Source of the DNA: Campylobacteraceae bacterium
Lineage (GTDB): Bacteria; Campylobacterota; Campylobacteria; Campylobacterales; Campylobacteraceae
Length of the DNA stretch: 33,809 nt
Assembly: GCA_031274495.1 (NCBI GenBank)
Contig: JAISQB010000084.1
Location: 1 to 33,809 of the forward strand
Reading direction: 5' to 3'
A program made the position numbers and the translations under genes. Below the pieces are notes generated by a model. That model saw only the letters and a list, made by a program, of their open reading frames with translations, was not told where the DNA came from and searched no databases. This document shows, piece by piece, positions 10,625-29,457 of this stretch (positions are counted from its first letter, which is position 1; every line of letters starts with the position of its first letter).

Positions 10625-10818
10625 TTCGTGCGAAAATGTCGAGAGAAGAGATGATTCCCGTTTGCACGGGAATCATGAAGAAGTGGGTATTTCGAGAAAT
10701 CTTTACGGTTGTCTGCTTGCGGGTTTTTTAGCGCAAAGACTCTCGCCGCCAAGGAGGTGGCGGCATAGAGCGAAGCGAAATTGACAAAGTTTATCCGCTC
10801 TATGCCGCCACCTGCCCT
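10625..10818. repeat. Structured direct repeat, copy 2
   Basis: This is the second copy of the element at 10406-10600. Its small hairpin is a perfect 10 bp stem, ATGATTCCCG-tttgca-CGGGAATCAT (10651-10676). The outer G-C pair of copy 1 is replaced by T-A here, a paired change. The large stem is 18 bp (10755-10772 with 10796-10813) around a 23-base loop. It begins 12 bases past the stop of the last array gene (minus strand), so its RNA would form a very stable hairpin at the 3' end of the array transcript. Confidence 0.85.
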
Positions 10819-10824
10819 CTCAAT

Positions 10825-12270
10825 TCATCTATCCTCCCAATAAAGATAAGGATAACCCTCACCTTCGTCTATCTTCCAAATCGTTGCAAAGTCCCAGCCA
10901 AGATCATCTTCGTAGGTCGTTTGCGTTTTAAGTTCGTCGTTTGTCTTATCCGCCCCGTCCAATCCGTCGGTGTCGTCGCTATTTTTAGGAGCGCCGTTAA
11001 CGCTCATGGTCTCTAAGGCGAAGTTGTTTGATACGGTGTAGGTGCCGCTGACATAACCAACGATACGATTGAAATGAGATGTGGCGTTGAGCTCTTGGTT
11101 GATAGCGGCGTTGTTGGTTATCGTAGAGCCGCCGTCAACAATTCCCGCGATGGCGCCGATATAACTGCTTGTACCGACTTTTCCCGCGGAGTAGCTGCCC
11201 TCTATCGTTGAGTTATTTCTAACATGTCCCGCGATGGCGCCGACATTGGTACTTCCTCTGACATTTCCTATAAAGTAACTGTTGTTTATCGTAGAGTTGC
11301 CAATATATCCCACGATGCCGCCGACTTCGGCACCTCCTGTGACATTTCCCTTTACATAGCTGTTGGTTATCGTTGAGTTGCCCATCAATTCTCCTGCGAT
11401 ACCGCCGACATAATTGCCGCCTCTAACCGATCTGTTCTCATCTATCAAAATACCAACATTTTTAATAGTACCTCCGCTTACATAACCGAACAGTCCGACT
11501 GGGTATGATGATACTCTATTTATCCAAAAGTTGCTTATCGTATGTCCGTCACCGTTCAATATGCCCTTAAATGGGTCCGGGGAAGAGCCGACAGGAGTCC
11601 ATCCTTGCGTTTCGCTGACACCGTTTTCTCCTACTTGCAGTTTAATGTCGCTTGTGAGGATATATTTGCCCGATAGATTGTCTCCGATATCGTCTAACTT
11701 GGTTTCGTTTAATATCTCTATGACATCGGAGGTGGCATAAAAGTTGATGTTACCCTCGGGCGTAAAGTTTCCGCTTGCCACAGATGTGTTGTGAGATAGA
11801 TGCCAACTTTTCGCATATTCCAGAGTTTTATTATCTAAGTCTACGCTATCGCCCCTGATGATATTCTCCTCTTTCAAAAGGTCAAGCTTCTCATCAAAAA
11901 ACGCAACCCTAAAAACCTCTATATATTGGGCTTTAAAAGTTACATCGCCCGTTACGATATAAGAGGTTTCATCTTTACCTATCATCTGCGCGCCTGCGAC
12001 CTCTATCCAACCATCAAAGAGATATCCCTTTTTTTCAGGAGCCTCAGGAATGGTGATGTTTGAACCCATCTCTTTACTTAGATTGGCTATCTCGACATCA
12101 TTCTCATCTAAAAATATCACCGTATAATAAGTAGTTACAACAGTAGGCGAGCCTCCGTTATAGCCGCCTCCTCCGCATCCAAAAAAGAGCAAGGAGGCAA
12201 AAATAGTTAAAACCAACGCTGCTAAATTTCCGGACGGCTTTACCGTCAAATTGTTTGAAAAACTAAACAT
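10825..12270 (-). CDS. Array gene 14 (last transcribed): GLUG lipoprotein with two InlB-type modules
   Basis: A 481-residue protein. The signal peptide ends at LLFFGC with the lipidated Cys at residue 32. InlB-type module 1 is at about 48-116 (VIFLDEND, then GWIEVAGAQ, then VTFKAQY) and a second, more divergent module is at 120-179. GLUG repeats run from GLFGYV at 259 through three full SY-type units to the NNAAINQ block at 386-392. The C-terminus is complete (YPYLYWEDR). One internal unit is unusual in reading TIEGSYSAGKV. GGAG at 12277-12280 supports the start. The gap to the upstream gene is 68 bases. The 3' side runs straight into the 18 bp hairpin of the structured repeat. Confidence 0.88.
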   Translation of the reverse strand: MFSFSNNLTVKPSGNLAALVLTIFASLLFFGCGGGGYNGGSPTVVTTYYTVIFLDENDVEIANLSKEMGSNITIPEAPEKKGYLFDGWIEVAGAQMIGKDETSYIVTGDVTFKAQYIEVFRVAFFDEKLDLLKEENIIRGDSVDLDNKTLEYAKSWHLSHNTSVASGNFTPEGNINFYATSDVIEILNETKLDDIGDNLSGKYILTSDIKLQVGENGVSETQGWTPVGSSPDPFKGILNGDGHTISNFWINRVSSYPVGLFGYVSGGTIKNVGILIDENRSVRGGNYVGGIAGELMGNSTITNSYVKGNVTGGAEVGGIVGYIGNSTINNSYFIGNVRGSTNVGAIAGHVRNNSTIEGSYSAGKVGTSSYIGAIAGIVDGGSTITNNAAINQELNATSHFNRIVGYVSGTYTVSNNFALETMSVNGAPKNSDDTDGLDGADKTNDELKTQTTYEDDLGWDFATIWKIDEGEGYPYLYWEDR

Positions 12271-12338
12271 CTTTCACTCCTTCCGCTATAAAATGTTTAT
12301 CAAAGAGGCAAATGGCGACCTGTTGCCATTCGCTCAAC

Positions 12339-13589
12339 TTACCTATCTTCCCAATAAAGATAAGGATAACCCTCACCTTCGTCTATCTTCCAAATTGTCT
12401 CAAAGTCCCAGCCAAGCCCGCCTTTACCATTTCCGTTTACCGCATCCGAATAGGTCATTTCCGCTTTAAGTTCCGCATCGCTTTTGAGCGTCCCCGCGTT
12501 GCCGTTGGCGCCTTCTATCACAATGCGCGTACTACTCAAAGCGAAGTTATTTGATACCTTATTGCTGCTGCTGACATAACCGCTGATACGATTCACCACT
12601 GATGTGGCGTTGACCTCTTGATGGATAGCTGCGTTATTGTTTATATTGCTTTCGATGACATATCCAGCGATGCCGCCGACACCGATATATGCGCTGATAT
12701 TTGCCATAGAGTAACTGGTGGCTATTCTTGAATTTTGTTTAATATATCCCGCGATGCCGCCCGCATAATAAGTTCCGCTGATATTTCCCACAAAGTAACT
12801 GTTGGTGATCGCTGAGCTAATTTGAATATACCCCGCGATGCCGCCGACATGCGTAGTTCCTCTAATGCTTCCTACGGAGTAACTGTTGGTGATTGTTGAG
12901 CCTTGCTGAACCCATCCCGAGATGCCGCCGACGCGCTCTTCGCCTTGAATGCCGCCGTTATTATCGTCTATCTCTACGCCAAGGTTTTTAATCGTGCCTG
13001 CTTCTATACGCCCAAACAGTCCGACCTCAGAACCCGATGGTCTATTGATCCAAAGACCCCTTATCTTGTGTCCGTTACCGTTGAGTATACCTCTAAATGG
13101 AGTTGGCGGAGGCGATCCGACAGGAAGCCACCCTTGCGCCCCTTCAAAACCGGCTCCGGTAGCTTTCAGCTCAATATCTTTTATCAAGATATACTTGCCT
13201 GATAGGCTATCTCTCATGGCGTCCAGTTCGGCTTGGTTTGATATCTCGATGACGCCTTGGGTGGCGTAAAAGTTGATATCGCTGCGCGGTATGAAAGTTT
13301 CGCCCAACGCAGTTGTACTTTTAGCCTGATACCAATCCTCTACGCCATACTCGCTCTTTTTATCATCAAGGTCTACAATAGCGCCCTCGGCAATATTGTC
13401 CGTCCCCAAAAGCTCAAGCGTGTCATCATAAAACGAAACCACATAGCCATTAAGATTGCGCGGATCACCCCCGCCATTACCGCTTCCTCCGCAGCCAAAA
13501 AAGAGCAAGGAGACAAAAAGAGTCAAAGCCAACGCCGCCAAATTTCCAAACGGTTTTACCGTCAAAGTATTTGAAAAAAAACTAAACAT
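12339..13589 (-). CDS. Array gene 13: GLUG lipoprotein with one InlB-type module
   Basis: A 416-residue protein with Cys33 in LLFFGCGGSGNGGG. It goes straight from the tether to a single InlB-type module at about 50-109 (VVSFYDDTLELL, then EDWYQAKS, then DINFYA). GLFGRIEAGTIKNLG opens three SY-type GLUG units, followed by NNAAIHQEVNA, where the usual NQ is HQ. The first GLUG units read GGISGWVQ and GGIAGYIQ. The C-terminal segment before YLYWEDR is the longer TYSDAVNGNGKGGLGWDF version. Only 35 bases separate it from the stop of the preceding gene, one of the two shortest gaps in the array. Its leader is of the GGAGCAAAAG type. Confidence 0.88.
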   Translation of the reverse strand: MFSFFSNTLTVKPFGNLAALALTLFVSLLFFGCGGSGNGGGDPRNLNGYVVSFYDDTLELLGTDNIAEGAIVDLDDKKSEYGVEDWYQAKSTTALGETFIPRSDINFYATQGVIEISNQAELDAMRDSLSGKYILIKDIELKATGAGFEGAQGWLPVGSPPPTPFRGILNGNGHKIRGLWINRPSGSEVGLFGRIEAGTIKNLGVEIDDNNGGIQGEERVGGISGWVQQGSTITNSYSVGSIRGTTHVGGIAGYIQISSAITNSYFVGNISGTYYAGGIAGYIKQNSRIATSYSMANISAYIGVGGIAGYVIESNINNNAAIHQEVNATSVVNRISGYVSSSNKVSNNFALSSTRIVIEGANGNAGTLKSDAELKAEMTYSDAVNGNGKGGLGWDFETIWKIDEGEGYPYLYWEDR

Positions 13590-13624
13590 CTTTTGCTCCT
13601 TCCATCACCAAATGTTTATCCGAC

Positions 13625-15097
13625 TTACCTATCTTCCCAATAAAAATATGGGTAACTCTCGCCCTCATCTATCTTCCAAGGATGCGAAGCGTTTTCTCCG
13701 TCAAAAGACCAGCTAAGGTCTACCTCATAAGTCTCTTGCGACTTAAAATCCGCATCTGTTTTATCTGCTCCGTCCAATCCGCCGGCATTGTCGCTAAATC
13801 TTTGAGCGCCGTTAACATTCATGGTGGCTAAGGCGAAATTATCTGATATTGTGTTGACGGCAGCAACCACCCCAACAATGCGATTGACACCGGATGAGCC
13901 GATAATCTCTTGATTGATAGCGGCGTTATTGGCAACCCGGCTTTGGAAAACATACCCCGCGATGCCGCCGACAGCCATATCTCCGCTGACACTTGCCTTG
14001 GAGTAGGTATTGGTTATGTTTGAGCCATCCCCAACATATGCCGCGATGCCGCCTACACCGATGTTTCCGCTAATGCTTCCTATAGAGTAGCTATTGGCTA
14101 TTGCTGAATTCTGCATATATCCCGCGATGCCGCCGATATTGTTGTTTCCGCTAACACTTCCTATAGAGTAACTATTGGCTATCGTTGAGTTGGTATTAAT
14201 AAGCCCCGCGATGCCGCCGATATTGTCTTCACCTTTAATGCCGCCGTTATCATCATCTATCAGAACACCAAGATTTTTAACCGTGCCTCCCTTTATACGC
14301 TTAAACAGTCCGACCTCGTAAGTCTGCGGTCTATTTATCCAAAGACCGCTTATCTTATATCCGTTACCGTTAAATATGCCTACAAATGGGTCTGACGGAG
14401 CTACCCCGATAGGAAGCCATCCCGCCGACCCCTCAAAACCATCCCCAGTAGATTCAAGCTCGATGTCCTTTATCAAGAGATAACTACCCGATGTATTATC
14501 TCTGACACCGTTTAGCTCGGTCTGGTTGGATATCTCTATGATATCGGGGACAGCGTAAAGGTTGATGTCGCTATCGGGCGTAAAGCTCTCTTCCAGCGGG
14601 TCTGAGCTTTTAGCCTGATACCACTCGCCTACGCCATACTTGCTCTTTTTGGCGCCAAGGTCTATGCTATCGCCTTTAGTAACGATATCCGTCTCCAAAA
14701 GATCAAGCTCGGCACCATAAAAGGCGACTCTAAAAATCCCTACATATTGGTACCTGACTTTAAAAGTTACATTGCCCGTTACGACATAAGAGGTTTCACC
14801 CGCCGCTATCGTCTGTTCTCCCCCAACTTCAAACCAACCCTCAAACTCATAACCCTCTTTTTCGGTAGCCGCAGGAACGGTTATGGATGAGCCTAATTTT
14901 TTGTTTAGCCTCGCTATCTCGCTATCATCCTCATCTAAAAATAGCACATCGTAAGTAGCGATAACAGCAGGAGAGCCTCCGTTATAGCTATTTCCGCCGC
15001 CGCAGCCAAAAAATAGCAAGGAGACAAAAAGAGTCAATGCCAATGCCGAATTTCCCGACAGTTTTCCCGTCAAAATTTTTGATAAAAAACTAAACAT
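13625..15097 (-). CDS. Array gene 12: GLUG lipoprotein with two InlB-type modules
   Basis: A 490-residue protein with Cys32 in LLFFGCGGGNSYNGG. Module 1 (VLFLDEDDSEIARLNKKLG, then EGWFEVGGEQTIAAGET) covers about residues 49-118. Module 2 (VAFYGAELDLLETDIV, then GEWYQAKSS, then DINLYA) follows. The GLUG part opens GLFKRIKGGTVKNLG, with K where siblings have G, and has three SY-type units before NNAAINQ. One unit reads GGIAAYVG instead of GGIAGYV. The C-terminus is DLSWSFDGENASHPWKIDEGESYPYFYWEDR in pattern, so L-to-F and G-to-S changes are visible in the usually fixed tail. Gap to the upstream gene: 78 bases. Confidence 0.88.
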   Translation of the reverse strand: MFSFLSKILTGKLSGNSALALTLFVSLLFFGCGGGNSYNGGSPAVIATYDVLFLDEDDSEIARLNKKLGSSITVPAATEKEGYEFEGWFEVGGEQTIAAGETSYVVTGNVTFKVRYQYVGIFRVAFYGAELDLLETDIVTKGDSIDLGAKKSKYGVGEWYQAKSSDPLEESFTPDSDINLYAVPDIIEISNQTELNGVRDNTSGSYLLIKDIELESTGDGFEGSAGWLPIGVAPSDPFVGIFNGNGYKISGLWINRPQTYEVGLFKRIKGGTVKNLGVLIDDDNGGIKGEDNIGGIAGLINTNSTIANSYSIGSVSGNNNIGGIAGYMQNSAIANSYSIGSISGNIGVGGIAAYVGDGSNITNTYSKASVSGDMAVGGIAGYVFQSRVANNAAINQEIIGSSGVNRIVGVVAAVNTISDNFALATMNVNGAQRFSDNAGGLDGADKTDADFKSQETYEVDLSWSFDGENASHPWKIDEGESYPYFYWEDR

Positions 15098-15175
15098 CTT
15101 TTACTCCTTCTATCAAAAAAATGTTTGCCAAAAGAGGCGAGCGCCGACTTGCCGCCCAAGCGCTTCACCTACAAC

Positions 15176-16561
15176 CTAATCTTCCCAATAAAGATATGGA
15201 TAACCCACGCCATCGTCTATCTTCCAAGTCGTTGCAAAATCCCAGCCAAGACCGCCCTTGCCGTCTGCGATTGTGTTGCCCATATAGGTCAGCCTTGACT
15301 TTAACTGCGCGATACTCTTGAGCGTACCCTCTTTGCCGTTGTCGCCCTCTATCTCGATCTTTGTGATACTTAGGGCGAAGTTATTTGTTATCGTGTTGCT
15401 GCCGGAGATATAGCCGACAATGCGGTTGATATCGACCAATCCGCCGATCTCTTGATTGATGGCGGCGTTGTTGATGACAGTCGAGCTATACCCGACATTG
15501 CCAGCGATGCCGCCTACGCCGATGCCGCCGCTGATTCTTGCTTCAGAGTAGCTCTCAGTGATCGTCGCGAAGTCGTAAACTTCCCCCGCGATGCCGCCGA
15601 TATTTGTATTGTCTCCGATGACGCTTCCTATGGAGTAGCTGTTGGTGACCATTGAGCCGAACTCAACTCTCCCCGCGATGCCGCCGACATTGGTAGTCCC
15701 GCTGATGCTAAGTTTAGAGTAACTGCCCCTTATCGTCGAGTCGCCGTAGACATGCCCTGCGATGCCGCCGACAAAGTTGTCCGCGCTGATGTTGCCTGCG
15801 AAGTAGCTGTTGGTGATCACGGAGTCGGTCGTGATGACCCCCGCGATGCCGCCGACATAATCCTCACCCTGTATCCATTTGGTCTCATCCGTTAAGACGC
15901 CCAGATTTTTGATCGTGCCTATCTCGACGCAGCCAAACAGCCCCACACGCGCAGCAGTCGGTCTATCTATCCAAAGACCGCTTATCTTGTGAGAGTTGCC
16001 GTTAAATATACCCGTAAACGCGTCTGCAAGGTCGCCGATAGGAGACCACCCATGTATCTCATCAAAGCCCGCCTCTCCCGCTCTTAGTTTGATATCTCTT
16101 GTCAAGCTGTAGTTGCCCGACAAGCCGTTTCTAATGCTATTTAGTTCGGCTTGGTTTGATATCTCTATGACATTGGGGGCGGCATAAAAGTTGACATCTT
16201 CACTTATCGTGAAATGTCCCTCTACAGCAGTCGCGTTTTTAGCCTGATACCAGCCAAGCACGCCATGCTCTCTCTTTTTGTCGTCAAGGTTTATACTATC
16301 GCCAAACTTTGCATACCTCGCCTCCAAAAGCTCAAGGTTCGCGTCATAAAACGAGACTACGCAACCCTCAAGAGTGCGCGTATTGCCCCAATCTCCGCTT
16401 CCGCAGCCAACAGACAGCAAAGAGGCGAAAAAAATCGACGCCAACTTAGTAAGGTTAAAACTTGAAAATATTGATATATTTGGGCTCTCCATAGACGCAG
16501 CCAACACCACCGAATGCCTGAACGGTTTTACGCTCACAGTATCTATCGAAAATTTAAACAT
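15176..16561 (-). CDS. Array gene 11: GLUG lipoprotein with one InlB-type module, lacking the terminal Arg
   Basis: A 461-residue protein with a longer N-terminus (about 20 extra residues, SMESPNISIF...) before the lipobox LLSVGC, Cys53. One InlB-type module (VVSFYDANLELLEARYAKFG, then LGWYQAKNAT, then DVNFYA). Four SY-type GLUG units precede NNAAINQEIGG. The protein stops at YWED: one extra T before the usual AGG codon makes TAG, so the last Arg is lost, a small frameshift at the very end. The leader region (16562-16635) resembles that of gene 2 of the array, including AGCAGCCGACC against AGCAGCCGGGT, rather than those of its immediate neighbours. Confidence 0.88.
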   Translation of the reverse strand: MFKFSIDTVSVKPFRHSVVLAASMESPNISIFSSFNLTKLASIFFASLLSVGCGSGDWGNTRTLEGCVVSFYDANLELLEARYAKFGDSINLDDKKREHGVLGWYQAKNATAVEGHFTISEDVNFYAAPNVIEISNQAELNSIRNGLSGNYSLTRDIKLRAGEAGFDEIHGWSPIGDLADAFTGIFNGNSHKISGLWIDRPTAARVGLFGCVEIGTIKNLGVLTDETKWIQGEDYVGGIAGVITTDSVITNSYFAGNISADNFVGGIAGHVYGDSTIRGSYSKLSISGTTNVGGIAGRVEFGSMVTNSYSIGSVIGDNTNIGGIAGEVYDFATITESYSEARISGGIGVGGIAGNVGYSSTVINNAAINQEIGGLVDINRIVGYISGSNTITNNFALSITKIEIEGDNGKEGTLKSIAQLKSRLTYMGNTIADGKGGLGWDFATTWKIDDGVGYPYLYWED

Positions 16562-16635
16562 CTCTCACTCCTCCCGCTATAAAGTATCCATAAAAACAGA
16601 ACCTATAAAAGCAGCCGACCCGCCGCCCACCCAAC

Positions 16636-18183
16636 TCACCTATCCTCCCAGTAAAGATAAGGATAACCCTCGCCATCATCTATCTTCCAAATTGTCTCAA
16701 AATCCCAGCCAAGCCCGCCGTCGCCGTCTCCGCTTGTCGCATTAGAATAGGTTAGCTCCGACTTTAATTGCGTGATATCTTTGGATGTGCCGGCAACGCC
16801 ACCTACACCTCCTACGACTTCCATAGTATCTAAAGCGAAGTTGTTTGTTGTATTGCTGCCGCCGCTCTGAATATAACCGATAATGCGATTGACACCGGTC
16901 GTGCCGTTAATATTTTGATTGATAGCGGCGTTATTGGTTACTATTGCATTATTCTTAATGCGTCCCGCGATGCCGCCGACATAATTTTTGCCGCTGACAT
17001 TTGCTGCAGAGTAACTGTTGGTTGTCTTTGAGTTGATATCAGCATCTCCCGCGATGCCGCCGACATAATTGTTACCGCTGACATCTCCTATGGAGTAAGA
17101 GTTGGTTATTAAGCCGGCAGTATAACTGAGTCCCGCGATGCCGCCGATTTGGTTGCTGCTTCCCTTGACACTTCCTGCGAAGTAACTGTTAGCTATTAGA
17201 CTGTTGCTAAGTTGTCCCGCGATGCCGCCGACTAATCTATCGCTTCCGCTGACATTTCCTTTTGCGTAAGAGTTGGTTATAGTTGAGCTGCGTCCCACAT
17301 ATCCCGCGATGGCGCCAACACAACTTCTACCTTTAACCTCTTTATCCTCATCTATCAAAAGCCCGAGATTTTTAATCTTACCTGCGTTTACATAGCCAAA
17401 CAGCCCAACACAATCAAATGCTCCATCTGTCCAAAAGCCGCTTATCATATGACCGTTACCGTTAAATGTGCCGTTAAATGAACCCGTAAATCCATCGGCA
17501 AATATGTTTGAACTATTCCCGATAGGAAGCCACCCAAGCGTTTCGTCAACGCCGTCCTCTCCTGCCTTTAGCGCAATATCATCTACGAGGATATATTTAC
17601 CCGTTAGATTATCTCTGACGCCGTTTAGTTCGGTCTGGTTTGATACCTCTATGACATTAGGGATAGCGTAAAAGTTCATGCTGCCCTCAGGCGTGAAATT
17701 ATCCTCTATCTTGGTTGCGTTTTTAGCTAAGTACCAACCATTGTCAAGGTCTATACTGCCGCCTTGGGTAATATTTTCTTCCCACAAAAGTTCAAGATTG
17801 GCATCATAAAATGCGACTCTAAAGAGTTCCAGATACCCGGCTTTAAAGGTTACATTGCCCGTTACGATATAAGAGGTTTCACCCGCCGCTATCGTCTGCG
17901 CTCCTCCCACTTCAAACCAACCCTCAAACGCATACCCCTCTTTTTCGAGAGCCTCGGGGACGGTTATGGATGAGCCTGCTTCTGCGTTTAGCTTGGCTAT
18001 CTCGCCATCATCTTCATCTAAAAATATCACATCATAAGTGGTGACAACAGAAGGAAAACCTCCGTTATAACTGCTTCCGCCTCCGCAGCCTATGAACAGC
18101 AAGGAGACAAAAAGGATCGAAACCAACGCGGTTACATATCCAAACGGTTTTACCGTCAAAGTATCTGTTGAAAAACTAAACAT
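16636..18183 (-). CDS. Array gene 10: GLUG lipoprotein with two InlB-type modules
   Basis: A 515-residue protein with Cys33 in LLFIGCGGGSSYNGG. InlB-type module 1 (VIFLDEDDGEIAKLNAEAG, then GYAFEGWFEVGGAQTIAAGE) is almost identical to that of the next gene upstream (18254-19831). Module 2 is shortened: after GGSIDLDN it goes directly to GWYLAKNAT, lacking the KKSEY-like stretch. The fold-linked region carries an insertion, GNSSNIFADGFTGSFNGTFNGNGH. Four SY-type GLUG units then NNAAINQNING. It ends WKIDDGEGYPYLYWEDR. Gap to the upstream gene: 70 bases; leader of the GGAGTGAAAG type. Confidence 0.88.
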   Translation of the reverse strand: MFSFSTDTLTVKPFGYVTALVSILFVSLLFIGCGGGSSYNGGFPSVVTTYDVIFLDEDDGEIAKLNAEAGSSITVPEALEKEGYAFEGWFEVGGAQTIAAGETSYIVTGNVTFKAGYLELFRVAFYDANLELLWEENITQGGSIDLDNGWYLAKNATKIEDNFTPEGSMNFYAIPNVIEVSNQTELNGVRDNLTGKYILVDDIALKAGEDGVDETLGWLPIGNSSNIFADGFTGSFNGTFNGNGHMISGFWTDGAFDCVGLFGYVNAGKIKNLGLLIDEDKEVKGRSCVGAIAGYVGRSSTITNSYAKGNVSGSDRLVGGIAGQLSNSLIANSYFAGSVKGSSNQIGGIAGLSYTAGLITNSYSIGDVSGNNYVGGIAGDADINSKTTNSYSAANVSGKNYVGGIAGRIKNNAIVTNNAAINQNINGTTGVNRIIGYIQSGGSNTTNNFALDTMEVVGGVGGVAGTSKDITQLKSELTYSNATSGDGDGGLGWDFETIWKIDDGEGYPYLYWEDR

Positions 18184-18253
18184 CTTTCACTCCTTCCGCC
18201 ATAGAATGTTTGTCATATGGGGCAAACAGCAACATGCCGCCGCTTGCTCACAC

Positions 18254-19831
18254 CTACCTATCTTCCCAGTAAAGATAAGGATAACCCTCATCCTCGTCCA
18301 TCTTCCAAGGATACGAGGCGTTGTCTCCGAATTTCCAACCAAGCCCACCGTTACCATCGCCGTTTATCGTACCCTCATATGTTGACTTCGTCTTTAGCTG
18401 CGTGATATCTTTGGATGTGCCGACAACGCCGCCCGTAGTTCCTATGACCTCCATGGAATCTAAAGCGAAGTTGTTTGTTGCATTGCCGCCGACTCTACCT
18501 CCTGAAATGCGATTGACGTCGGTCGTGCCGTTAATCTTTTGATTGATAGCGGCGTTATTGGTTAATGTCGTATTGTTAAAAACATGTCCCGCGATGCCGC
18601 CGACATAATTTTTGCCGCTGACGCTTGCTTCGGAATAAGAGTTGGTTATCTTTGAGTTGTCATAAGCGTTTCCCACGATGCCGCCGATACGATCATAATC
18701 TCCGCTGACATTTCCTATAGAGTAAGAGTTGGTTATTGAACTGGCAATAAAGATATCCCCTGCGATGCCGCCGACATAAAGACTGCTTCCGCTGACGCTT
18801 CCCGTGAAGTAACTGCCATCTACCATACTGCTGCTAAGTTGTCCTGCGATGCCGCCGACTCTACTATCGCTTCCGCTGATATTTCCTTTTGCGTAAGAGT
18901 TGGTTATAGTTGAGTTGCGTCCGAGATATCCCGCGATAGCGCCGACACGACCTTTACCTTTGACCCCCTTGCCCTCGTCTATCAAAAGCCCGAGATTTTT
19001 AATCTTACCTGCGTTTACATAGCCAAACAGCCCGACACAATCAAACGCTCTATCTATCCAAAAGCCGCTTATCGTATGACCGTTACCGTTAAATGTGCCG
19101 TTGAACGAGCCTGCAAACGCACTGGTAAATGTGCTTGAACTATTCCCGATAGGAAGCCACCCCAGTGTTTCGTCAACGCCGTCTTCTCCTGCCTTTAGTT
19201 TAATGTCGCCTGTGAGGATATATTTGCCCGTTAGATTATCTCTGACACTATTTAGCCCCTCTTGGTTTGATATCTCTATGATATTGGGGGCAGCGTAAAA
19301 GCTGATGTTGCTATCCGGCGTGAAGATTCCCTCTGCCTTGGTTGTGTTTTTAGATAGATACCAACTTGTCGCATACTCTAAGGATTTATTATCAAGGTCT
19401 ACGATGGAGCCTTGGGTAATGTTTTCTTCCCACAAAAGTTCAAGATTGGCATCATAAAACGCCACTCTAAAAATTTCTACATATTGGTACCTTGCTTTAA
19501 AAGTTACATTGCCCGTTACGATATAAGATGTTTCACCCGCCGCTATCGTCTGCGCGCCTCCCACTTCAAACCAACCCTCAAACTCATACCCCTCTTTTTC
19601 GAGAGCCTCTGGGACGGTTATGGATGAGCCTGCTTCTGCATTTAGCTTGGCTATCTCGCCATCATCTTCATCTAAAAATATCACATCATAAGTAGCTATA
19701 ACAGAAGGAAAACCTCCGTTATAACTGCTTCCGCCTCCGCAGCCAAAAAATAGCAAGGAGACAAAAAGAGTCAAAGCCGCTATATGTCCGAACAGTTTTA
19801 CCGTCAAATTATTTGAAAAAAAACTAAACAT
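18254..19831 (-). CDS. Array gene 9: GLUG lipoprotein with two InlB-type modules (longest member)
   Basis: A 525-residue protein, the longest in the array, with Cys31 in LLFFGCGGGSSYNGG. Its N-terminal 120 residues nearly match those of gene 10 (16636-18183), and both share the duplicated FNGTFNGNGH insertion and GLFGYVNAGKIKNLGLLID. The GLUG section has four SY-type units and NNAAINQKING, and differs more between the two genes than the N-terminus does. The tail uses the FGDNASYPWKMDEDEGYPYLYWEDR pattern, unlike gene 10. The mixture of near-identity and divergence points to recent duplication or gene conversion. Gap to the upstream gene: 35 bases, with a leader nearly identical to that of gene 13. 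Confidence 0.88.
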   Translation of the reverse strand: MFSFFSNNLTVKLFGHIAALTLFVSLLFFGCGGGSSYNGGFPSVIATYDVIFLDEDDGEIAKLNAEAGSSITVPEALEKEGYEFEGWFEVGGAQTIAAGETSYIVTGNVTFKARYQYVEIFRVAFYDANLELLWEENITQGSIVDLDNKSLEYATSWYLSKNTTKAEGIFTPDSNISFYAAPNIIEISNQEGLNSVRDNLTGKYILTGDIKLKAGEDGVDETLGWLPIGNSSSTFTSAFAGSFNGTFNGNGHTISGFWIDRAFDCVGLFGYVNAGKIKNLGLLIDEGKGVKGKGRVGAIAGYLGRNSTITNSYAKGNISGSDSRVGGIAGQLSSSMVDGSYFTGSVSGSSLYVGGIAGDIFIASSITNSYSIGNVSGDYDRIGGIVGNAYDNSKITNSYSEASVSGKNYVGGIAGHVFNNTTLTNNAAINQKINGTTDVNRISGGRVGGNATNNFALDSMEVIGTTGGVVGTSKDITQLKTKSTYEGTINGDGNGGLGWKFGDNASYPWKMDEDEGYPYLYWEDR

Positions 19832-19866
19832 CTTTTGCTCCTTCCATCATAAAATGTTTATCCAAC

Positions 19867-21228: not shown

Positions 21229-21290
21229 CTTTTGCTCCTTTCACCGAAAAAGTGTTTATCAAAAACGCAAACAGCACTTTATGCCGTCTG

Positions 21291-22640
21291 CTACCTCTCC
21301 TCCCAATAAAGATAAGGATAGCCCTCATCTTTTTTCCAAGGAGATGAATCGCTCTCTCCGAATGACCAACCAAGCCCGAATGTAGGGGCATTGGAATAGG
21401 TCGTTTGCGTTTTGAAATACAGATCTGCTTTAGGCGTACCATCGCTGCCCTCATCACCCTCTGCTTCAATCTTCATAACATTTAAAGCGAAATTATTTGA
21501 TGCTATGCTGCCGTTCAGTTTGCCGACGATACGATTGATATCGTATCTGCCGACGACCTTTTGATTGATAGCGGCGTTGTTGGCTACTTTTGAGCTATAC
21601 TCAACTGATCCGGCGATGCCGCCGACATTATTGGTTCCGTTCACATTTCCCGTAGAGTAACTGTTGGATATCACCGAGTCGCCGTAAACATATCCCGCGA
21701 TGCCGCCGACATCACTATCTCCGTTGACGGTTGCTTTGGAGTAAGCGTTGGTTATTTTTGAGCCTGACATAACATATCCCGCGATGCCGCCGATATTGCA
21801 AGTGCCGCTGACGCTTCCCGCGCAAAAGCTGTTGATGATCTGCGAGTCAAATCCAACTCGTCCCGCGATGCCGCCTGCTTCATAAGTTCCGCTGACATTG
21901 CCTATAGAGTAACTATTGGATATCACCGAGCCAAACCCAATCTTCCCCGCGATGCCGCCAACATAACTCTCACCCCTAACCCCTTTGGACTCATTTATCA
22001 AAAGCTCGAGATTTTTTATCGTGCCCCCTTCAATGCAGCCAAACAGCCCTGCATAATCATCACCCGATGTTTTATTCACCCAAAGGTTGCTTATCTTGTG
22101 GGAGTTACCGTTAAATATACCCCCAAATGGCTTCGTATCATCGCCGATAGGCTCCCACCCCCATGTCTCATCAAAACCGTCTCCCTTAGCTTCTAATTTA
22201 ATATCTCTTGTCAATACATAACTGCCTGATGGATTGTCCCTTATAGCATTTAGTTCGGTTTGGTTTGATATCTCTATAACATTGGGCTCGGCATAAAAAT
22301 TGGTGCTGCCGCTTGGCGTGTAGTTCTCGCCTAATGCAATTGCGCTTTTAATCAAATGCCAACCCTCTACGCCATATTCGCTTTTTTTATCGTTAAGATT
22401 TATACTACCGCCGGCAATAACAACTTTCGTCTCCAAAAGTTCAAGCCCTGCGTCATAAAATGAAACTACATAACGGTCGAGATTGCGCACTCTCCACTCG
22501 CTTTTGCTTTTGCGATCCGCAAATAGCGAAGAGACGCAAGCAATCGAGAGCAATTTGCTAAAGCGTTTTGGTGCGATCGCAGACAAAGCCGACCGCTTAG
22601 ACGGATTTGCCGCCAAAATATTTAATGTAGAGCTAAACAT
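21291..22640 (-). CDS. Array gene 7: GLUG protein with a degraded lipobox
   Basis: A 449-residue protein whose N-terminus reads LLSIACVSSLFADRKSKSEW: the expected FAGCG is FADRK. Cys35 in LSIAC could be a makeshift lipobox but the context is poor. One InlB-type module (VVSFYDAGLELLETKVV, then EGWHLIKSA, then STNFYA). The pre-GLUG region and KTSGDDYAGLFG are shared with gene 8. Four SY-type units precede NNAAINQKVVGRYDINRIVG. The tail is SPWKKDEGYPYLYWEER, shorter by two residues and with E for D. It is flanked by leaders of the GGAGCAAGAG type. The gap to the upstream gene is 84 bases, the longest in the array. Confidence 0.85.
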   Translation of the reverse strand: MFSSTLNILAANPSKRSALSAIAPKRFSKLLSIACVSSLFADRKSKSEWRVRNLDRYVVSFYDAGLELLETKVVIAGGSINLNDKKSEYGVEGWHLIKSAIALGENYTPSGSTNFYAEPNVIEISNQTELNAIRDNPSGSYVLTRDIKLEAKGDGFDETWGWEPIGDDTKPFGGIFNGNSHKISNLWVNKTSGDDYAGLFGCIEGGTIKNLELLINESKGVRGESYVGGIAGKIGFGSVISNSYSIGNVSGTYEAGGIAGRVGFDSQIINSFCAGSVSGTCNIGGIAGYVMSGSKITNAYSKATVNGDSDVGGIAGYVYGDSVISNSYSTGNVNGTNNVGGIAGSVEYSSKVANNAAINQKVVGRYDINRIVGKLNGSIASNNFALNVMKIEAEGDEGSDGTPKADLYFKTQTTYSNAPTFGLGWSFGESDSSPWKKDEGYPYLYWEER

Positions 22641-22724
22641 CTCTTGCTCCTTTCATCAGAAAAATGTTTATCAAGATACCAAAGCAAAAAGCAATAAACC
22701 GCTATTTGCCAAACCCTTACCTAC

Positions 22725-24077
22725 CTACCTATCTTCCCAATAAAGATAAGGATAGCCCACGCCATCATCTATCTTCCAAGGAGACAAAACGCTCTCTCCG
22801 AAAGACCAGCCAAGACCATCTTCATAGGTCGCTTTCGTTTTAAGTTCACCTCTTATCTTGCTTCCTCCCTCCAATCCGTCAACATCATCAACAGTTCTAA
22901 TGAAGCCATTGATCTTTATAGCAGCCGAAGCGAAGTTGTTTGATATCGTGTTGTTATTCCATATAGAGCCGACAACGCGATTGGTTTCGTTTGCAGTGCC
23001 GTCAATCTTTTGATTGATGGCGGCGTTGTTGATTATTGTTGTGTTGGTTACGGCAGTTCCCGCGATACCGCCGACAAAGTCGACTCCGCTAACACTTGCC
23101 GTGGAGTAAGAGTTGGATAGCGTTGAGTTGCCGAGAACATACCCCGCAATGCCGCCGACACTATCGCCGCTTCCTATGACATCGGTGATCACTCCTCTGA
23201 CATCTCCTATAGAGTAAGTGTTGTTTACCGTAGAGATATTAGAAACATACCCCACAACGCCGCCGACAAAATGCTGTCCGATTACGCTTCCTATAGAGTA
23301 AGAGTTGGATAGCGTTGAGTTATTCCTAACGCTTCCCGCGATGCCGCCGACAAAATCTTCACCTCTGACGGATCTGTTCTCGTCTATCAGGACGCCGATA
23401 TTTTTGATTGTGCCTCCATTGGATACAAAACCAAACAGTCCTGTATGGGCCAACAGTGGTCTATCCACCCAAAGACCGCTTATCTTATGACCGTTGCCGT
23501 TAAATGTACCTCTAAATGTGGTGTCGGTCTGGTAGTACGCACCGGAATTATCGCCGATAGGAAGCCACCCTTGCGTCTCATCAAAGCCGTCCTCTCCTGC
23601 TTGCAGCACAATATCTTCTACCAAGAGATAACTACCTGACATATTGTCTCTTACAGCGTCTAATTCGGCTTGGCTCGATACCTCTATGACACCGTTGGCG
23701 GCATAAAAGCTGATATCGCTATCGGGCGTGAAGTTTCCATCTATAGCGGTTTCATTGTTGGCTAAGTACCAATCATCTACGCCATACTTGATCTTTCTAT
23801 CATCAAGGTCTACGACGGAGCCTATGGCGATATTTTCCCTGTCCAAAAGGTCAAGTTCGGCGTCATAAAACGAAATCGCGTAGCTGTCAAGAGCGCGCTG
23901 ACTGCCCCCGCCGCCGCTTCCGCCGCAGCCTACAAACAGTAAAGCTACAAAAAGGATCGGGATCAATATAGCAACGATCAAACCGACATATGTTGATATT
24001 TTTGGACTCATTGAAGCCAACTTAACTGAATGTTTAGACGGCTTTCCCGTCAAAATATTTGATAAAAAATCAAACAT
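22725..24077 (-). CDS. Array gene 6: GLUG lipoprotein with one InlB-type module
   Basis: A 450-residue protein with a long N-terminus (KLASMSPKISTY...) and Cys51 in LLFVGCGGSGGGGS. One InlB-type module (AISFYDAELDLLDRENIAIG, then DDWYLANNE, then DISFYA). The pre-GLUG region holds an insertion, DNSGAYYQTDTTFRGTFNGN. Three SY-type GLUG units, the second extended by about eight residues (RGVITDVIGSGDSVGG), which breaks the usual 28-residue spacing. The NNAAINQ block is followed by NETNRVVGSIW. The start at 24077 has GGAG six bases upstream. Its nearest relative in the tether and first module is gene 5. Confidence 0.87.
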   Translation of the reverse strand: MFDFLSNILTGKPSKHSVKLASMSPKISTYVGLIVAILIPILFVALLFVGCGGSGGGGSQRALDSYAISFYDAELDLLDRENIAIGSVVDLDDRKIKYGVDDWYLANNETAIDGNFTPDSDISFYAANGVIEVSSQAELDAVRDNMSGSYLLVEDIVLQAGEDGFDETQGWLPIGDNSGAYYQTDTTFRGTFNGNGHKISGLWVDRPLLAHTGLFGFVSNGGTIKNIGVLIDENRSVRGEDFVGGIAGSVRNNSTLSNSYSIGSVIGQHFVGGVVGYVSNISTVNNTYSIGDVRGVITDVIGSGDSVGGIAGYVLGNSTLSNSYSTASVSGVDFVGGIAGTAVTNTTIINNAAINQKIDGTANETNRVVGSIWNNNTISNNFASAAIKINGFIRTVDDVDGLEGGSKIRGELKTKATYEDGLGWSFGESVLSPWKIDDGVGYPYLYWEDR

Positions 24078-24144
24078 CTTTCACTCCTTACATTATAAAA
24101 TCTCTATCATATGAGCCAAACGGCTTATCGCCAGCTGCTCAAAC

Positions 24145-25356
24145 TCATCTATCTTCCCAATAAAGATAAGGATAACCCCCATCTATCTCCCAAGGTCCGA
24201 ATTTCCAGCCAAGATCATCTTTATAGGTCTCTCGCGTTTTAAAGTCTGCATCGGATTTAAGAGTTCCCGCGTCGCCGTTGGTGCCTTTTGGTGTAATATT
24301 TGTGGTGTATAGGGCGAAATTATGTGACACTGTATTGCTCGCGGTGAGATAGCCGACGATACGATTGACATTGGATGTACCGTTGACCTCTTGATTGATG
24401 GCGGCGTTATTGGTCACCGTCGATCTCAAACCGATAGCTCCAGCGATGCCGCCGACGGAACCCGCGCCGATAAGACTTCCCGTGGAGTAGCTGTTGGTCA
24501 CATTTGAGTCGCTGTAGGCGTATCCCGTGATGCCGCCGACTTGATTTCTTCCGTCGATATTTACCTTGGAGTAGCTATCGGTGATCCTTGAGTCATGCCT
24601 GATCTCCCCCGCGATGCCGCCTGCGGCAGTACCTGTTGCGATGATATTGCCCGTAGAGTAGGCGTTGGTTATCGAGCTATCATAGATATATCCCGCGATA
24701 GCTCCGACAGAACTTCTGCCTTTAACGCCTCTGCTCTCATCTATCAAAACACCGAGATTTTTAATGGTGCCTGCATTTACATAGCCAAATAGTCCGATAT
24801 TGTCGCCCGTTCTATTGATCCAAAGTCCGCTTATCTTATGACCGTTACCGTTAAATATCCCCTTAAATCGCCCCGACGCACTGCTGCTCCCGATAGGAAG
24901 CCACCCCTCAGCGGCGGCAAAACCATCTCGCCCGACCTCCAACGCGATATCTTTTACCAAAAGATAACTACCCGAAGGATTGTCCCTGACATCGTCAAGT
25001 TCGGCTTGGTTTGACACCTCTATGACACTAGGGATTGCATAAAAGTTAGTACTGCTCTGCGGCGTGAAGATTCCGCCTGTAGGAGTTGTACTTTTAGCCG
25101 TGTACCAACTTACCGCAAACTGCGCAGCTTTATCGTCAAGGTCTATATCCTCGCCCTCGGCAATATTTTCTACATCTAAAAGGTCAAGTTTGGCGTCGTA
25201 AAACGAAATAGCGTAACTGTCAAGAGCGCGTTGATCATCGCCGCCTCCGCCTCCGCCGCCACTGCCGCCGCAGCCAAAAAATAGCAATGAGACAAAAACA
25301 GCCGCCAAATATTTATATGGCTTTACCCTCAAAGCATCTCTTAAAAAACTAAACAT
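24145..25356 (-). CDS. Array gene 5: GLUG lipoprotein, shortest full-length member
   Basis: A 403-residue protein with Cys29 in LLFFGCGGSGGGGGGG, the longest Gly tether, encoded by GGN-type triplets. One InlB-type module (AISFYDAKLDLLDVENIAEG, then VSWYTAKSTT, then STNFYA). GLFGYVNAGTIKNLGVLID opens three SY-type GLUG units, then NNAAINQEVNGTSNVNRIVG. The tail is short (KFGPWEIDGGYPYLYWEDR), lacking the usual WKIDEGEG spacer. Gap to the upstream gene: 69 bases. Triplet slippage in the tether would change its length without breaking the frame. Confidence 0.87.
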   Translation of the reverse strand: MFSFLRDALRVKPYKYLAAVFVSLLFFGCGGSGGGGGGGDDQRALDSYAISFYDAKLDLLDVENIAEGEDIDLDDKAAQFAVSWYTAKSTTPTGGIFTPQSSTNFYAIPSVIEVSNQAELDDVRDNPSGSYLLVKDIALEVGRDGFAAAEGWLPIGSSSASGRFKGIFNGNGHKISGLWINRTGDNIGLFGYVNAGTIKNLGVLIDESRGVKGRSSVGAIAGYIYDSSITNAYSTGNIIATGTAAGGIAGEIRHDSRITDSYSKVNIDGRNQVGGITGYAYSDSNVTNSYSTGSLIGAGSVGGIAGAIGLRSTVTNNAAINQEVNGTSNVNRIVGYLTASNTVSHNFALYTTNITPKGTNGDAGTLKSDADFKTRETYKDDLGWKFGPWEIDGGYPYLYWEDR

Positions 25357-25425
25357 CTTTCACTCCTTTCACCCAAAAGTGTCTGTCGCAAGCGGCGACA
25401 AGTCACCGCCTGCTTAAGCCCATAT

Positions 25426-26751
25426 CTACTTATCTTCCCAATATAAAAAAGGGTAACCCTCACCCTCATATATCTTCCAAGGAGACAAGATATCATCTTC
25501 ATCAAAAGCCCAGCCAAGAGTATCCGAATAGAACTCTTGCGTCTTAAAATCCTCATCGGTTCCATCTATTCCCGCTTCGCCGTTGCTGTCTTTTATCGTA
25601 ATCTGCATAGTGTCTAAAGCGAAGTTGTTTGATATTGTCGTATGTCCGGTGTTTTGGATAACCCCTATGATACGATTGACATTGTTGTCCGTACCGTTGA
25701 TCTCTTGATTGATAGCGGCGTTATTGGCTAAGATCGAACCTTCAAAATATCCCACGATGCCGCCTATTTCTCTCGTCCCGCTAATATTTCCCGTGGAGTA
25801 GCTGTTGGTTATTGTTGAGACAGCCATCGCTCCCGCAATGCCGCCGAGCTCATAGTCTCCGACAATGGTTGCCTTGGAGTAAGCGTTGGTTATCGTTGCG
25901 TATTTATCAAGGATTCCCGCGATACCGCCGATATCACCATCCCCGCTAATCTTTCCCATGAAATAACTATTGATTATTTTTGAGCCTTCAAGAAGCTCTC
26001 CCGTGATACCGCCGACAGAGCAAATTCCGTTAACGCTTCCTATAGAGTAACTGTTGATTATCGCCGAATTAACTGTAAGAAATCCCGCGATGCCGCCGGT
26101 GTAACATTGACCTTTAACGCCGCCGTTGTCATCGTCTATCAGAAGCCCAAGATTTTTGATAGTACCGCCTACCACACCGGCAAATAGTCCGAAAGCACCA
26201 ACTCTCGAGGGCTCATCCATCCAAAGACCGCTTATCGTATGATGGTTACCGTTAAATATGCCGCCAAATGCGTTATCATAGTCTTTAAATAGAGGGGTCC
26301 ACCCATAAGTTTCATCAAAACCGTCCTCTCCTGCTTTTAATTCAATGTCTCTTAACAGAATATAATTACCGAACCGATTGCTTTCGATATTGCTTAGCTC
26401 GGCTTGGTTTGATATCTCTACAACATTGGGGATAGCGTAAAAGTTGGTATTGCCATTTGGTGTGAAGTTGCCGTCTATCGGCGCTGTGCTTTTGGCTAAG
26501 TACCATTCACTTACGCCATACTCGCTTTTTTTGGCGTCAAGGTCTATACTATTGCTGACAACTTCCGTGTCCAAAAGGTCAAGCTTATCATCATAAAACA
26601 AAACCTCATACTCGCTGAAGGTGCGCAGATCGATACTGCCCCCGCCGCCTCCTCCGCAGCCAAAAAATAGCAAGGAGACAAAAAGGATCAAAACCAACGC
26701 CGCCAAATTTCCGAACGGCTTTGCCGTCAAATTACTTGAAAAACTAAACAT
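25426..26751 (-). CDS. Array gene 4: GLUG lipoprotein with one InlB-type module
   Basis: A 441-residue protein. I start it at the ATG at 26751 (MFSFSSNLTAKPFG), which has GGAG in the family position. An in-frame ATG at 26793 would add 14 residues that no sibling has and would translate the conserved leader. Cys32 lies in LLFFGCGGGGGG. One InlB-type module (VLFYDDKLDLLDTEVVSN, then SEWYLAKSTA, then NTNFYA). The body opens GLFAGVVGGTIKNLG and has four SY-type GLUG units, including GGITGELLEG and GGIAGAMAVS, then NNAAINQEING. The tail is YPFLYWEDK, with F for Y and K for R. Gap to the upstream gene: 78 bases. Confidence 0.88.
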   Translation of the reverse strand: MFSFSSNLTAKPFGNLAALVLILFVSLLFFGCGGGGGGSIDLRTFSEYEVLFYDDKLDLLDTEVVSNSIDLDAKKSEYGVSEWYLAKSTAPIDGNFTPNGNTNFYAIPNVVEISNQAELSNIESNRFGNYILLRDIELKAGEDGFDETYGWTPLFKDYDNAFGGIFNGNHHTISGLWMDEPSRVGAFGLFAGVVGGTIKNLGLLIDDDNGGVKGQCYTGGIAGFLTVNSAIINSYSIGSVNGICSVGGITGELLEGSKIINSYFMGKISGDGDIGGIAGILDKYATITNAYSKATIVGDYELGGIAGAMAVSTITNSYSTGNISGTREIGGIVGYFEGSILANNAAINQEINGTDNNVNRIIGVIQNTGHTTISNNFALDTMQITIKDSNGEAGIDGTDEDFKTQEFYSDTLGWAFDEDDILSPWKIYEGEGYPFLYWEDK

Positions 26752-26829
26752 CTTTTGCTCCTTCCGCCATAAAATGTTTCTCATATGAGGCAAACGGCGA
26801 TTTGCACCGCTTGCCCAAACTTACCCGTC

Positions 26830-28131
26830 CTACCTATCTTCCCAATAAAGATAAGGATAATCCGCACCCTCATCTATCTTCCATGGATGGGAGGCGTTGT
26901 CTCCGAATTGCCAGCCAAGACCGCCGTTACCGTCTCCATCTATCTCACCCTCATAGGTTAATCTCGTCTTTAACAGCGCGTCGCTTTTGGGCGTGCCGTC
27001 ATTGCCGACCACGCCATCTATGTTAATATTCATGGTATCTAAAGCGAAGTTATTTGATACCAGTTCACTTAAGTCATTAATTATGGCGGCAATGCGATGG
27101 ACATTGATCAAGCCGTCATTATTTTGATTGATAGCAGCGTTATTAATTGCCATTGCGCCACTGGTAACTTCCCCAGCGATGCCGCCGACATAGTTAATTC
27201 CGCTGATATTTCCAATAGAGTAAGTGTTGGTTACCTCTGATGAACCACCGATCGATCCCGCGATGCCGCCGACATAATTGCCTTCGACGGCGTTTGCTTT
27301 GGAGTAAGCGTTGGTTATTTTTGAGTCAAATGCAACGTTTCCCGCGATGCCGCCGATAAAATAGTCTCCGCCAACATTCCCTGCGGAGTAGCTGAGGGTT
27401 ATCGTTGAATAAGTTTCAACGCATCCTGCGATGATGCCGACTTTACTTAAACCTTTAACCCCTTCGGTCTCGTCCGTCAAGACGCCGAGTTTTTTGATAT
27501 TGCCTCCTTCGATGCGTCCAAATAGTCCGACACAATTGTCCGATGGTCTATCTATCCAAAGTCCGCTTATCTTGCGTCCGTTACCGTTAAAGATACCCTT
27601 AAATGGGACTGTCTCATCGCCGATAGGAGTCCATCCTGCCGTTGCGTCAAAACCGACTTTTCCCGCTTGCAACTCAATATCTTCCAGCACGATATAGGTA
27701 CCCGATAGGTTGTTTCTGACGCTGCTTAGTTCGGCTTGGTCTGATATCTCTATGACATTTGGGATAGCGTAAAAGCCTGTTTTTTTATTTGGCAAAAAGC
27801 CTCCTTCTATCGGGACAGCACTTTGGGCTAAGTACCAATCTGTGCCGTACTTACTCTTTTTGGAGTCAAGGTCTATAACCTCGCCAGGATTGGTATAGTT
27901 CGCCTCCAAAAGCTCAAAGTCGGCATCATAAAACCAATAGGCGTGTGAACCTGCGACATACGGATTGACATAGTCGCCCTCCCACTCTCCGCAGCCCGCA
28001 AATAGTAAGGATACAAAAAGAATTGAGACCAAATTGATAAAGTTTGATGATCTTTTTGGGCTGATCGAAGCCAACTTAGTTGAATATTCAGACGGTCCTG
28101 CCGTCAAAGTGGGTATTGAAAAATTAAACAT
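26830..28131 (-). CDS. Array gene 3: GLUG lipoprotein with one divergent InlB-type module
   Basis: A 433-residue protein, the first full-length member in the direction of transcription. The extended N-terminus (KLASISPKRSSN...) leads to LLFAGC with Cys47. The tether is not Gly-rich but EWEGDYVNPYV. The InlB-type module is divergent (YWFYDADFELLEANYTNPG, then TDWYLAQSA, then TGFYA). The body opens GLFGRIEGGNIKKLGVLTD and has three SY-type GLUG units (the first GIIAGCVETYSTITLSYSAG), then NNAAINQNNDG. The late motif NRIVG is HRIAA here. The tail is complete (WKIDEGADYPYLYWEDR). Gap to the upstream remnant: 81 bases. Confidence 0.87.
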   Translation of the reverse strand: MFNFSIPTLTAGPSEYSTKLASISPKRSSNFINLVSILFVSLLFAGCGEWEGDYVNPYVAGSHAYWFYDADFELLEANYTNPGEVIDLDSKKSKYGTDWYLAQSAVPIEGGFLPNKKTGFYAIPNVIEISDQAELSSVRNNLSGTYIVLEDIELQAGKVGFDATAGWTPIGDETVPFKGIFNGNGRKISGLWIDRPSDNCVGLFGRIEGGNIKKLGVLTDETEGVKGLSKVGIIAGCVETYSTITLSYSAGNVGGDYFIGGIAGNVAFDSKITNAYSKANAVEGNYVGGIAGSIGGSSEVTNTYSIGNISGINYVGGIAGEVTSGAMAINNAAINQNNDGLINVHRIAAIINDLSELVSNNFALDTMNINIDGVVGNDGTPKSDALLKTRLTYEGEIDGDGNGGLGWQFGDNASHPWKIDEGADYPYLYWEDR

Positions 28132-28212
28132 CTTTCACTCCTTCTAATAGAAATCATTTACCAAAAAGATAAACATAGAAACAAACAGTTCGCCATTTGC
28201 TTCTATATTGAC

Positions 28213-28686
28213 CTATCTTGGATAAGGGTCACCCCCATCCATCTTCCAAATATACGAAGCGTTATCTTCGAAAAAGTAGTCAAGTCTCTGCCTCTTCAAA
28301 ACCTCATCTGTTGTTCCTACACTGCTGTTGCCGCCCTCATTTGCAATCTTCATAACGGCGAAGTTATTTACCACTGCGGTGTTAGTATAAAGATAAGCGA
28401 CCATGCAGCTGACATCGGATGTGTCTTTTGCTTCTATAACGGCGGCATTGGCGCTGATATTTTGGGTGTTGGTGATGTTTGATGAGTACCGATCGGGATT
28501 TATGATATCTCCGTCATACGCGTAACCGTTATATCCGTTTGCGTAGCCTGCAAATAGCAAGGAGACAAAAAGAGTTGAAGCCAAAGCAAAGTTTGATGAT
28601 ATTTTTCGGGCGATCTTATATAAAGCCCATGCCGCCGAATCTTTAGACGGATATACCGTTAAAATATCTGTTGAAAAACTAAACAT
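28213..28686 (-). CDS. Array gene 2: truncated family member (deletion remnant)
   Basis: A 157-residue open frame. The start MFSFSTDILTVYPSK and the hydrophobic segment LASTLFVSLLFAG match the family, but the lipobox Cys is Tyr (FAGYANG). All InlB and GLUG repeats are missing; the frame passes directly to remnants of the ISANAAVIE, VVNNFAVMKI and IWKMDGGDPY tail. About eight bases (TTTATTGG) are absent from the tail compared with siblings, so the frame shifts and ends at PYPR. It is almost certainly a decayed gene; a short secreted peptide cannot be excluded. It has a GGAGCGG ribosome-binding site. Confidence 0.7.
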   Translation of the reverse strand: MFSFSTDILTVYPSKDSAAWALYKIARKISSNFALASTLFVSLLFAGYANGYNGYAYDGDIINPDRYSSNITNTQNISANAAVIEAKDTSDVSCMVAYLYTNTAVVNNFAVMKIANEGGNSSVGTTDEVLKRQRLDYFFEDNASYIWKMDGGDPYPR

Positions 28687-28751
28687 TTTTCCGCTCCTTT
28701 TACGAAAAAGTATCTGTTAAAGCAGAACTCATAAAAGCAGCCGGGTACCCC

Positions 28752-29060
28752 TCACCATTTGCTTAAAACTAACTCACTCTTTTTATCGTCAATATCTATG
28801 CTGACTTCGGGCTTAACGCCTTTTGCCTCCAAAAGGTCAAGATTGGCGTCGTAAAATGAAACCGTCCGAACAGAAAGCGTATACTGCCTGTCGCCATAGC
28901 CCACACCCCCGCCGCAGCCTGCAAGCGCCAATGTGACAAAGATAGCTGCAGCCGACTTGGCAAAATTTGATGATATCTTTCGACCGATCACGGATGAAAT
29001 CAGTGCCGTTATCTGTTTAGATCGATTTGCACTCAAAGCATCTATCGAAAAATTCAACAT
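28752..29060 (-). CDS. Array gene 1: truncated family member, N-terminal lipoprotein part only
   Basis: A 102-residue open frame, the first of the array. The N-terminus is intact (MLNFSIDALS..., lipobox LALAGC with Cys49, GGG tether) and the InlB-type module begins (TVSFYDANLDLLEAKGVKPE). Right after DIDDKKSE the family sequence breaks and the frame ends at LVLSKW. Sequence beyond the stop resembles the spacer that normally follows a full gene, so one internal deletion removed the rest. It could still be made as a small lipoprotein. GGAG lies just upstream. It is nearest to the presumed array promoter. Confidence 0.72.
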   Translation of the reverse strand: MLNFSIDALSANRSKQITALISSVIGRKISSNFAKSAAAIFVTLALAGCGGGVGYGDRQYTLSVRTVSFYDANLDLLEAKGVKPEVSIDIDDKKSELVLSKW

Positions 29061-29457
29061 CTTTCACTCCTAACAGAAAGCGTTCATTGAAGAACCAAGT
29101 ACCTTTCACTTATGTCAGAAAACATTGTTAAAGATTTAAACTACATAATTTTATCATAAATATATAAAAATATCTGCTGTTTTGTAAACTTTTTAGTTAA
29201 GTATCGTATTTATGGGGTTTATTAATACTGCTTTGCTGTCATTTATGGGCTAAAGTGGTTAGTATTTTTTCGTAATTTTGATTTTTTTGTAAAAAATAGG
29301 TGACTTTTTAAAGTTAAGATTTATAAATCTGAGTAAGTTTGAATATTTTTTGTTAGAAATGACAGAAAGAGTTAGTTAATCTTGAGAAGTACGATAGAAA
29401 AGGTGAATATAAAAATACTAACGGGCTATTTACGGCTCGCACGAGAAAATGGCGGGT
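29061..29457. promoter_or_regulatory. AT-rich gap holding the likely promoter of the lipoprotein array
   Basis: About 397 bases without a supported gene. The first 30 carry the leader of array gene 1. On the minus strand TATGATAAAAT, with a possible -10 TATGAT at 29153-29158, lies about 92 bases before the start of gene 1. The same GATAAAAT lies upstream of the partial family gene at 1-399. The rest is AT-rich and I see nothing further that I can name. Confidence 0.35.

Follow-up and report, generated by a model that had tools for sequence, protein, structure and literature searches.

The locus described here raises the question of how a bacterium came to carry fourteen members of one protein family head to tail, and what such a set may be for. 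It occupies positions 10825–29060, on the minus strand, of a 33,809-nucleotide stretch of DNA from a Campylobacteraceae bacterium (the window), which is contig C46 of a genome assembly of 1.81 Mb in 97 contigs, 99% complete. The answer that we consider probable is that an adhesin-like lipoprotein gene has expanded in tandem in this one lineage, providing a co-expressed set of related but different binders. This reading is based on gene structure, homology, the predicted fold, the empty site in relatives, the single clade of the array genes and their shared spacers; from these features we infer one transcript, a surface location and a binding function.

An original prediction, made from the DNA letters alone, had described a one-strand tandem family of fourteen paralogous genes at this place. 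The family is borne out and does have fourteen members, but only twelve of them are full-length, the other two being truncated remnants. The full-length proteins comprise 403–525 residues and are 44–76% identical in pairs over their whole length, far more than expected by chance. Numbered along the window, they are encoded at 10825–12270 (member 1, 481 residues), 12339–13589 (member 2, 416), 13625–15097 (member 3, 490), 15176–16561 (member 4, 461), 16636–18183 (member 5, 515), 18254–19831 (member 6, 525), 19867–21228 (member 7, 453), 21291–22640 (member 8, 449), 22725–24077 (member 9, 450), 24145–25356 (member 10, 403), 25426–26751 (member 11, 441, with the start set at 26751 and not at 26793) and 26830–28131 (member 12, 433). 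Member 5 is closest to member 6 (76% identity). Remnant 13 (28213–28686) has lost its middle, so that the leader continues in frame into the C-terminal part, whereas remnant 14 (28752–29060) has a leader with a lipobox and ends with a stop inside the second domain, the divergent InlB-like one. Both remnants, likewise on the minus strand, are located at the presumed promoter-proximal end of the array. The spacers are 35–84 bp long, the interior of the array contains family genes only, and a conserved AAGGAG-type ribosome-binding site precedes every full-length gene. The further member that had been predicted to start at 399 is real, although cut by the contig end; only its N-terminal part (1–399, minus strand) is present, with the lipobox FVGC and an Flg_new domain that narrowly misses the Pfam cut-off.

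The proteins start with a leader that, in 10 of the 12 full-length members, includes a lipobox ending in cysteine (PS00013-type pattern), and on this basis they are predicted to be lipoproteins processed by signal peptidase II. The lipoprotein signal had been assigned to all members; it is lost in members 7 and 8, and in remnant 13 tyrosine replaces the cysteine. An InlB-type domain had been assigned equally broadly. This holds for a divergent InlB-like domain common to all twelve, which is unreported by Pfam and aligns with the canonical modules in hhalign with a probability of 94.7%, but not for the canonical InlB/Flg_new module (PF09479), present only in members 1 (residues 49–115, positions 11926–12126, minus strand), 3, 5 and 6. 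The latter module passes the Pfam cut-off in members 1 and 6 and was assigned by alignment of the same module in members 3 and 5; the Pfam search reported no Flg_new in members 2, 4 and 8. The GLUG domain (PF07581) is assigned to all twelve proteins, and the five full-length members that were tested all exceed the Pfam cut-off, with E-values of 1e-7 to 1e-13, in agreement with the original prediction. A paper on a Gb3 lectin that came up under the term GLUG was a false lead, stemming from Glugea.

The GLUG units follow one another as the rungs of a helix, with a length of exactly 28 residues in 34 of 42. Within a rung, G1, I3 and G5 are near-invariant and most other positions show good conservation, in contrast to the widely varying positions 6, 8, 9, 12, 19 and 25–27. 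The AlphaFold model of member 6 (m91440ec64ea1) predicts a right-handed β-helix over the GLUG part, with values of the predicted local distance difference test (pLDDT) mostly above 90; prediction is poor for the leader and for the canonical InlB module. Compared with solved structures, this helix scores highest against 3n6z from Bacteroides ovatus and the GLUG helix of IgA1 proteases (Z of 28–32), well ahead of other helices at Z of about 18 and less. The similarity to the GLUG helix of the M26 IgA1 proteases and to 3n6z is also detectable by sequence. The array proteins, however, share with them the predicted helix only: the zinc motif HExxH is found in none of the twelve full-length members, and the match to the Pfam M26 N-terminal family is below the cut-off. 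Protease activity was rejected for lack of this motif, and the helix is best read as a scaffold that would serve for binding.

The leaders and spacers had been predicted to be duplicated along with the genes, which would also share a common tail, and the conservation of leader, spacer and tail is confirmed. Most spacers contain a small hairpin on the minus strand (12305–12335, 15134–15165, 18219–18249, 21264–21293, 22681–22711, 24113–24140, which is weaker, 25385–25415 and 26787–26816). The same hairpin is also found shortly after the stop codon of the closest gene outside the array, located on contig C62, and this is its only convincing match outside the array, so that a genome-wide element was rejected. 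The hairpin was likewise rejected as a covarying RNA, since its covariation is weak and the score was reached by 40 of 500 shuffles, and a search of Rfam gave no known structured RNA at the gathering score. A long inverted repeat (10756–10812) lies directly behind the last gene, folds with its surroundings at −46 kcal/mol and is the likely end of transcription; a second copy is at 10538–10594. The noncoding region following the array (10430–10820) consists of about 218 bp in two tandem copies, each with a nearly identical 59-base palindrome, the 17-base arm of which has no other site in the genome at two or fewer mismatches. Upstream of the whole array, a σ70-like sequence on the minus strand (TTTACA-18-TATATT, 29159–29188) is a promoter candidate. 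The compact spacing of the genes favours one transcript.

The lineage-specific nature of the array is indicated by the comparison with other genomes. The assignment of the window to a genome of the Campylobacterota type, here of a gut type, is supported, and the family is present in all 14 genomes of the genus as dispersed copies; among the matches listed, tandem copies in the other genomes of the genus do not go beyond pairs. In the survey of the phylum, near full-length forms were found, apart from this genus, in two genera belonging to another family, most other matches representing a GLUG core within long proteins. In the other genomes of the same taxonomic family shown in this survey, the protein family is absent, apart from one weak hit, a distribution that points to a niche-linked family. 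The site of the array is empty in relatives: in genomes G003, G004, G005 and G011, the gene olsF abuts the gene of a 230-residue protein (hyp230) with a gap of about 1–12 bp, whereas in the window a TonB-dependent receptor and the array occupy this position. In genome G008, pstB adjoins hyp230. As far as the compared genomes show, the array is thus specific to its lineage, and the same fourteen genes in conserved order are not seen in relatives.

About 11 more complete members, as well as several fragments at contig ends, are present in the same genome outside the array. They include a protein of 2928 residues on contig C70 (L023, 5623–14409), with a lipobox, 13 canonical InlB repeats, GLUG and a YLYWEN tail. 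Two further tandem clusters of three members each are located on contigs C54 (L077) and C60 (L024), those on C54 being devoid of the YPYLYW tail. In a tree of 80 family members, the twelve array genes form one clade (support of 87), next to the C62 gene, and adjacent array genes resemble each other more closely than random pairs do (55.3 versus 52.3%, permutation p of 0.006). The single clade, the hairpin common to the C62 gene and the likeness of neighbours fit a tandem duplication of whole cassettes. An origin from a mobile element or phage was rejected, the matches to plasmids and phages being weak and partial, with none covering 80% of the query; neither an integrase nor a transposase was seen in the window.

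The mode of sequence change bears on two other explanations of the locus, namely that one or few members are expressed at once while recombination between units alters the surface protein (antigenic or phase variation), and that the amplification is mostly neutral, the duplicates being maintained by recombination, of little function and in the course of decay. A constant scaffold combined with high sequence diversity would suit antigenic variation, as would leaders and tails that are more alike than the middle: the proportion of synonymous differences (pS), near saturation in most pairs, is about 0.53 in the body and 0.25 in the first 25 codons. In all six pairs, pS is lower in the canonical InlB module than elsewhere in the gene, which hints at an exchange of that module. 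The pairwise homoplasy index (PHI) test reaches significance over all sites but fails to do so on third positions; correlation within codons may therefore explain the signal, and general recombination was rejected as a conclusion from this test. Tracts of eight thymines at codons 3–5 of members 2 and 6 could serve phase variation, yet both genes are in frame, and no longer tracts are present in the frames. All full-length units are complete and have a ribosome-binding site and a start of their own; an arrangement of silent partial cassettes facing one expression site is absent, and neither a recombinase nor an invertible promoter was seen in the window. Moreover, the proportion of nonsynonymous differences (pN) is below pS in all pairs for the body domains and, in the two closest pairs, even at the GLUG positions that vary, so that there is no sign of positive selection. 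Antigenic variation, which the original prediction had named as a possible function, has found no positive evidence and is unlikely; what stands of the surface-diversity locus proposed there is its best reading as a co-expressed set of different binders. In favour of neutral amplification are the two remnants at one end, the two members without a lipobox and the pN/pS of about 0.5–0.7 over much of the gene. This explanation is nevertheless distinctly unlikely, given that twelve long frames are still open despite near-saturated synonymous sites, that pN stays below pS throughout the body domains and that the scaffold positions of GLUG are strongly conserved. Decay is evident but partial, and it leaves the twelve open frames unexplained.

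Two further explanations depend on the surroundings of the genes. The TonB-dependent receptor (8069–10177, minus strand) is the first gene downstream of the array, in the same orientation, and is likewise absent from the site in relatives, which would be in keeping with a set of nutrient-capture lipoproteins serving it in the manner of SusD-like partners; β-helix folds are also common among polysaccharide-active proteins, although similarity of fold is by itself uninformative about activity. The receptor nevertheless resembles the ferric siderophore type (Cir/CfrA, below curated cut-offs) and not SusC, and its relatives in other genomes are on contigs other than that of the pst–uvrA locus, and for these two reasons a partnership with the array is very unlikely; about 650 bp and a strong inverted repeat also lie between the two. 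A tandem cluster of polymorphic repeat proteins of the cell surface bears a loose resemblance to a set for self or kin recognition of the kind known from polymorphic contact systems, but immunity genes, secretion genes and toxin domains are absent between and beside the units, and this function is extremely improbable.

The expansion into a co-expressed set of binders remains the preferred reading, and its course may be outlined as follows. An ancestral gene, comprising a leader, a divergent InlB-like domain, a GLUG β-helix, a YPYLYWED cap and a 3′ hairpin, would have settled between olsF and hyp230 and then been duplicated head to tail as a whole cassette. The copies would have diverged, with GLUG rungs and the canonical InlB module gained or lost and some copies decaying. 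A single transcript from a promoter above 29060 may be translated gene by gene from the strong ribosome-binding site of each, and the lipidated proteins would reach the outer membrane, where the β-helix, held out on a glycine-rich tether, could meet gut surfaces or polymers as its targets. Several points weigh against this account. The support for the clade of array genes is only moderate, and part of the array may be decaying, given two members without a lipobox and two remnants. The counts of family members elsewhere are lower bounds, since the assembly is in 97 contigs and members are often at contig ends. Promoter-like matches in the region are no commoner than in shuffled sequences, so the promoter is a candidate only and such matches establish neither a single transcript nor internal promoters.

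We can speculate, with considerable doubt, about a more specific arrangement, in which the helix with its fixed 28-residue rungs would be the scaffold of a combinatorial binder set, leaving about eight free positions per rung (6, 8, 9, 12, 19 and 25–27). The genes would form one polycistron, the spacer hairpins might determine how much of each protein is made relative to the others, and gain or loss of whole cassettes could proceed through the conserved joint of tail, spacer and leader. If such a binding set were true, the 28-residue rung, with some positions fixed and others free, would be a natural scaffold for repeat binders. The locus also offers a clean example, given the empty sites in close relatives, of how a single gene can give rise to a large set of surface proteins.

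The surroundings of the array include two genes of ornithine lipid synthase (1136–2845, minus strand, and 6102–7814, plus strand), which flank the phosphate-uptake genes pstCAB. The product of 6102–7814 exceeds the NCBIfam cut-off for OlsF; that of 1136–2845 shares its Pfam domains and has 73% identity with it, and two long matches of this synthase are found only in this genome. On the other side, hyp230 (29458–30150), located beside uvrA, is present in 13 of the 14 genomes of the genus and matches no Pfam or NCBIfam family.

Comparison of the locus with known systems reveals similarities both in protein content and in arrangement. In the insect-gut archaeon Methanimicrococcus blatticola, 16 surface proteins with Flg_new and 15 with GLUG were read by the authors as adhesin-like (PMC9723798). 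There, too, many envelope proteins with GLUG and Listeria–Bacteroides/InlB repeats have expanded in one lineage of a gut inhabitant; however, that organism is an archaeon and the section on these proteins describes no tandem array, whereas twelve bacterial lipoproteins stand here in a contiguous row. The lpl genes of the νSaα island of Staphylococcus aureus (PMC4470592) are likewise tandem paralogous lipoprotein genes, about 10 in approximately 10 kb, with a strain-variable number and homologs elsewhere in the genome. They belong to another protein family, and their conserved part is intragenic, unlike the joint of 3′ end, spacer and leader observed here. The omp-1/p28 locus of Ehrlichia (PMC7789307) also consists of tandem surface-protein paralogs, 14–23 in more than 26 kb, with lineage-specific copies, although these are outer-membrane proteins of the porin type and the locus is genus-wide, in contrast to the lipoproteins and the empty site in relatives described above. 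With many contiguous paralogs on the same strand, in a lineage-specific number, the present locus has the properties that characterize arrays of the lpl and omp-1/p28 type. A tandem array of GLUG lipoproteins was not found in the literature search; the type of array is already known from S. aureus and Ehrlichia, and the GLUG lipoprotein array itself is new.

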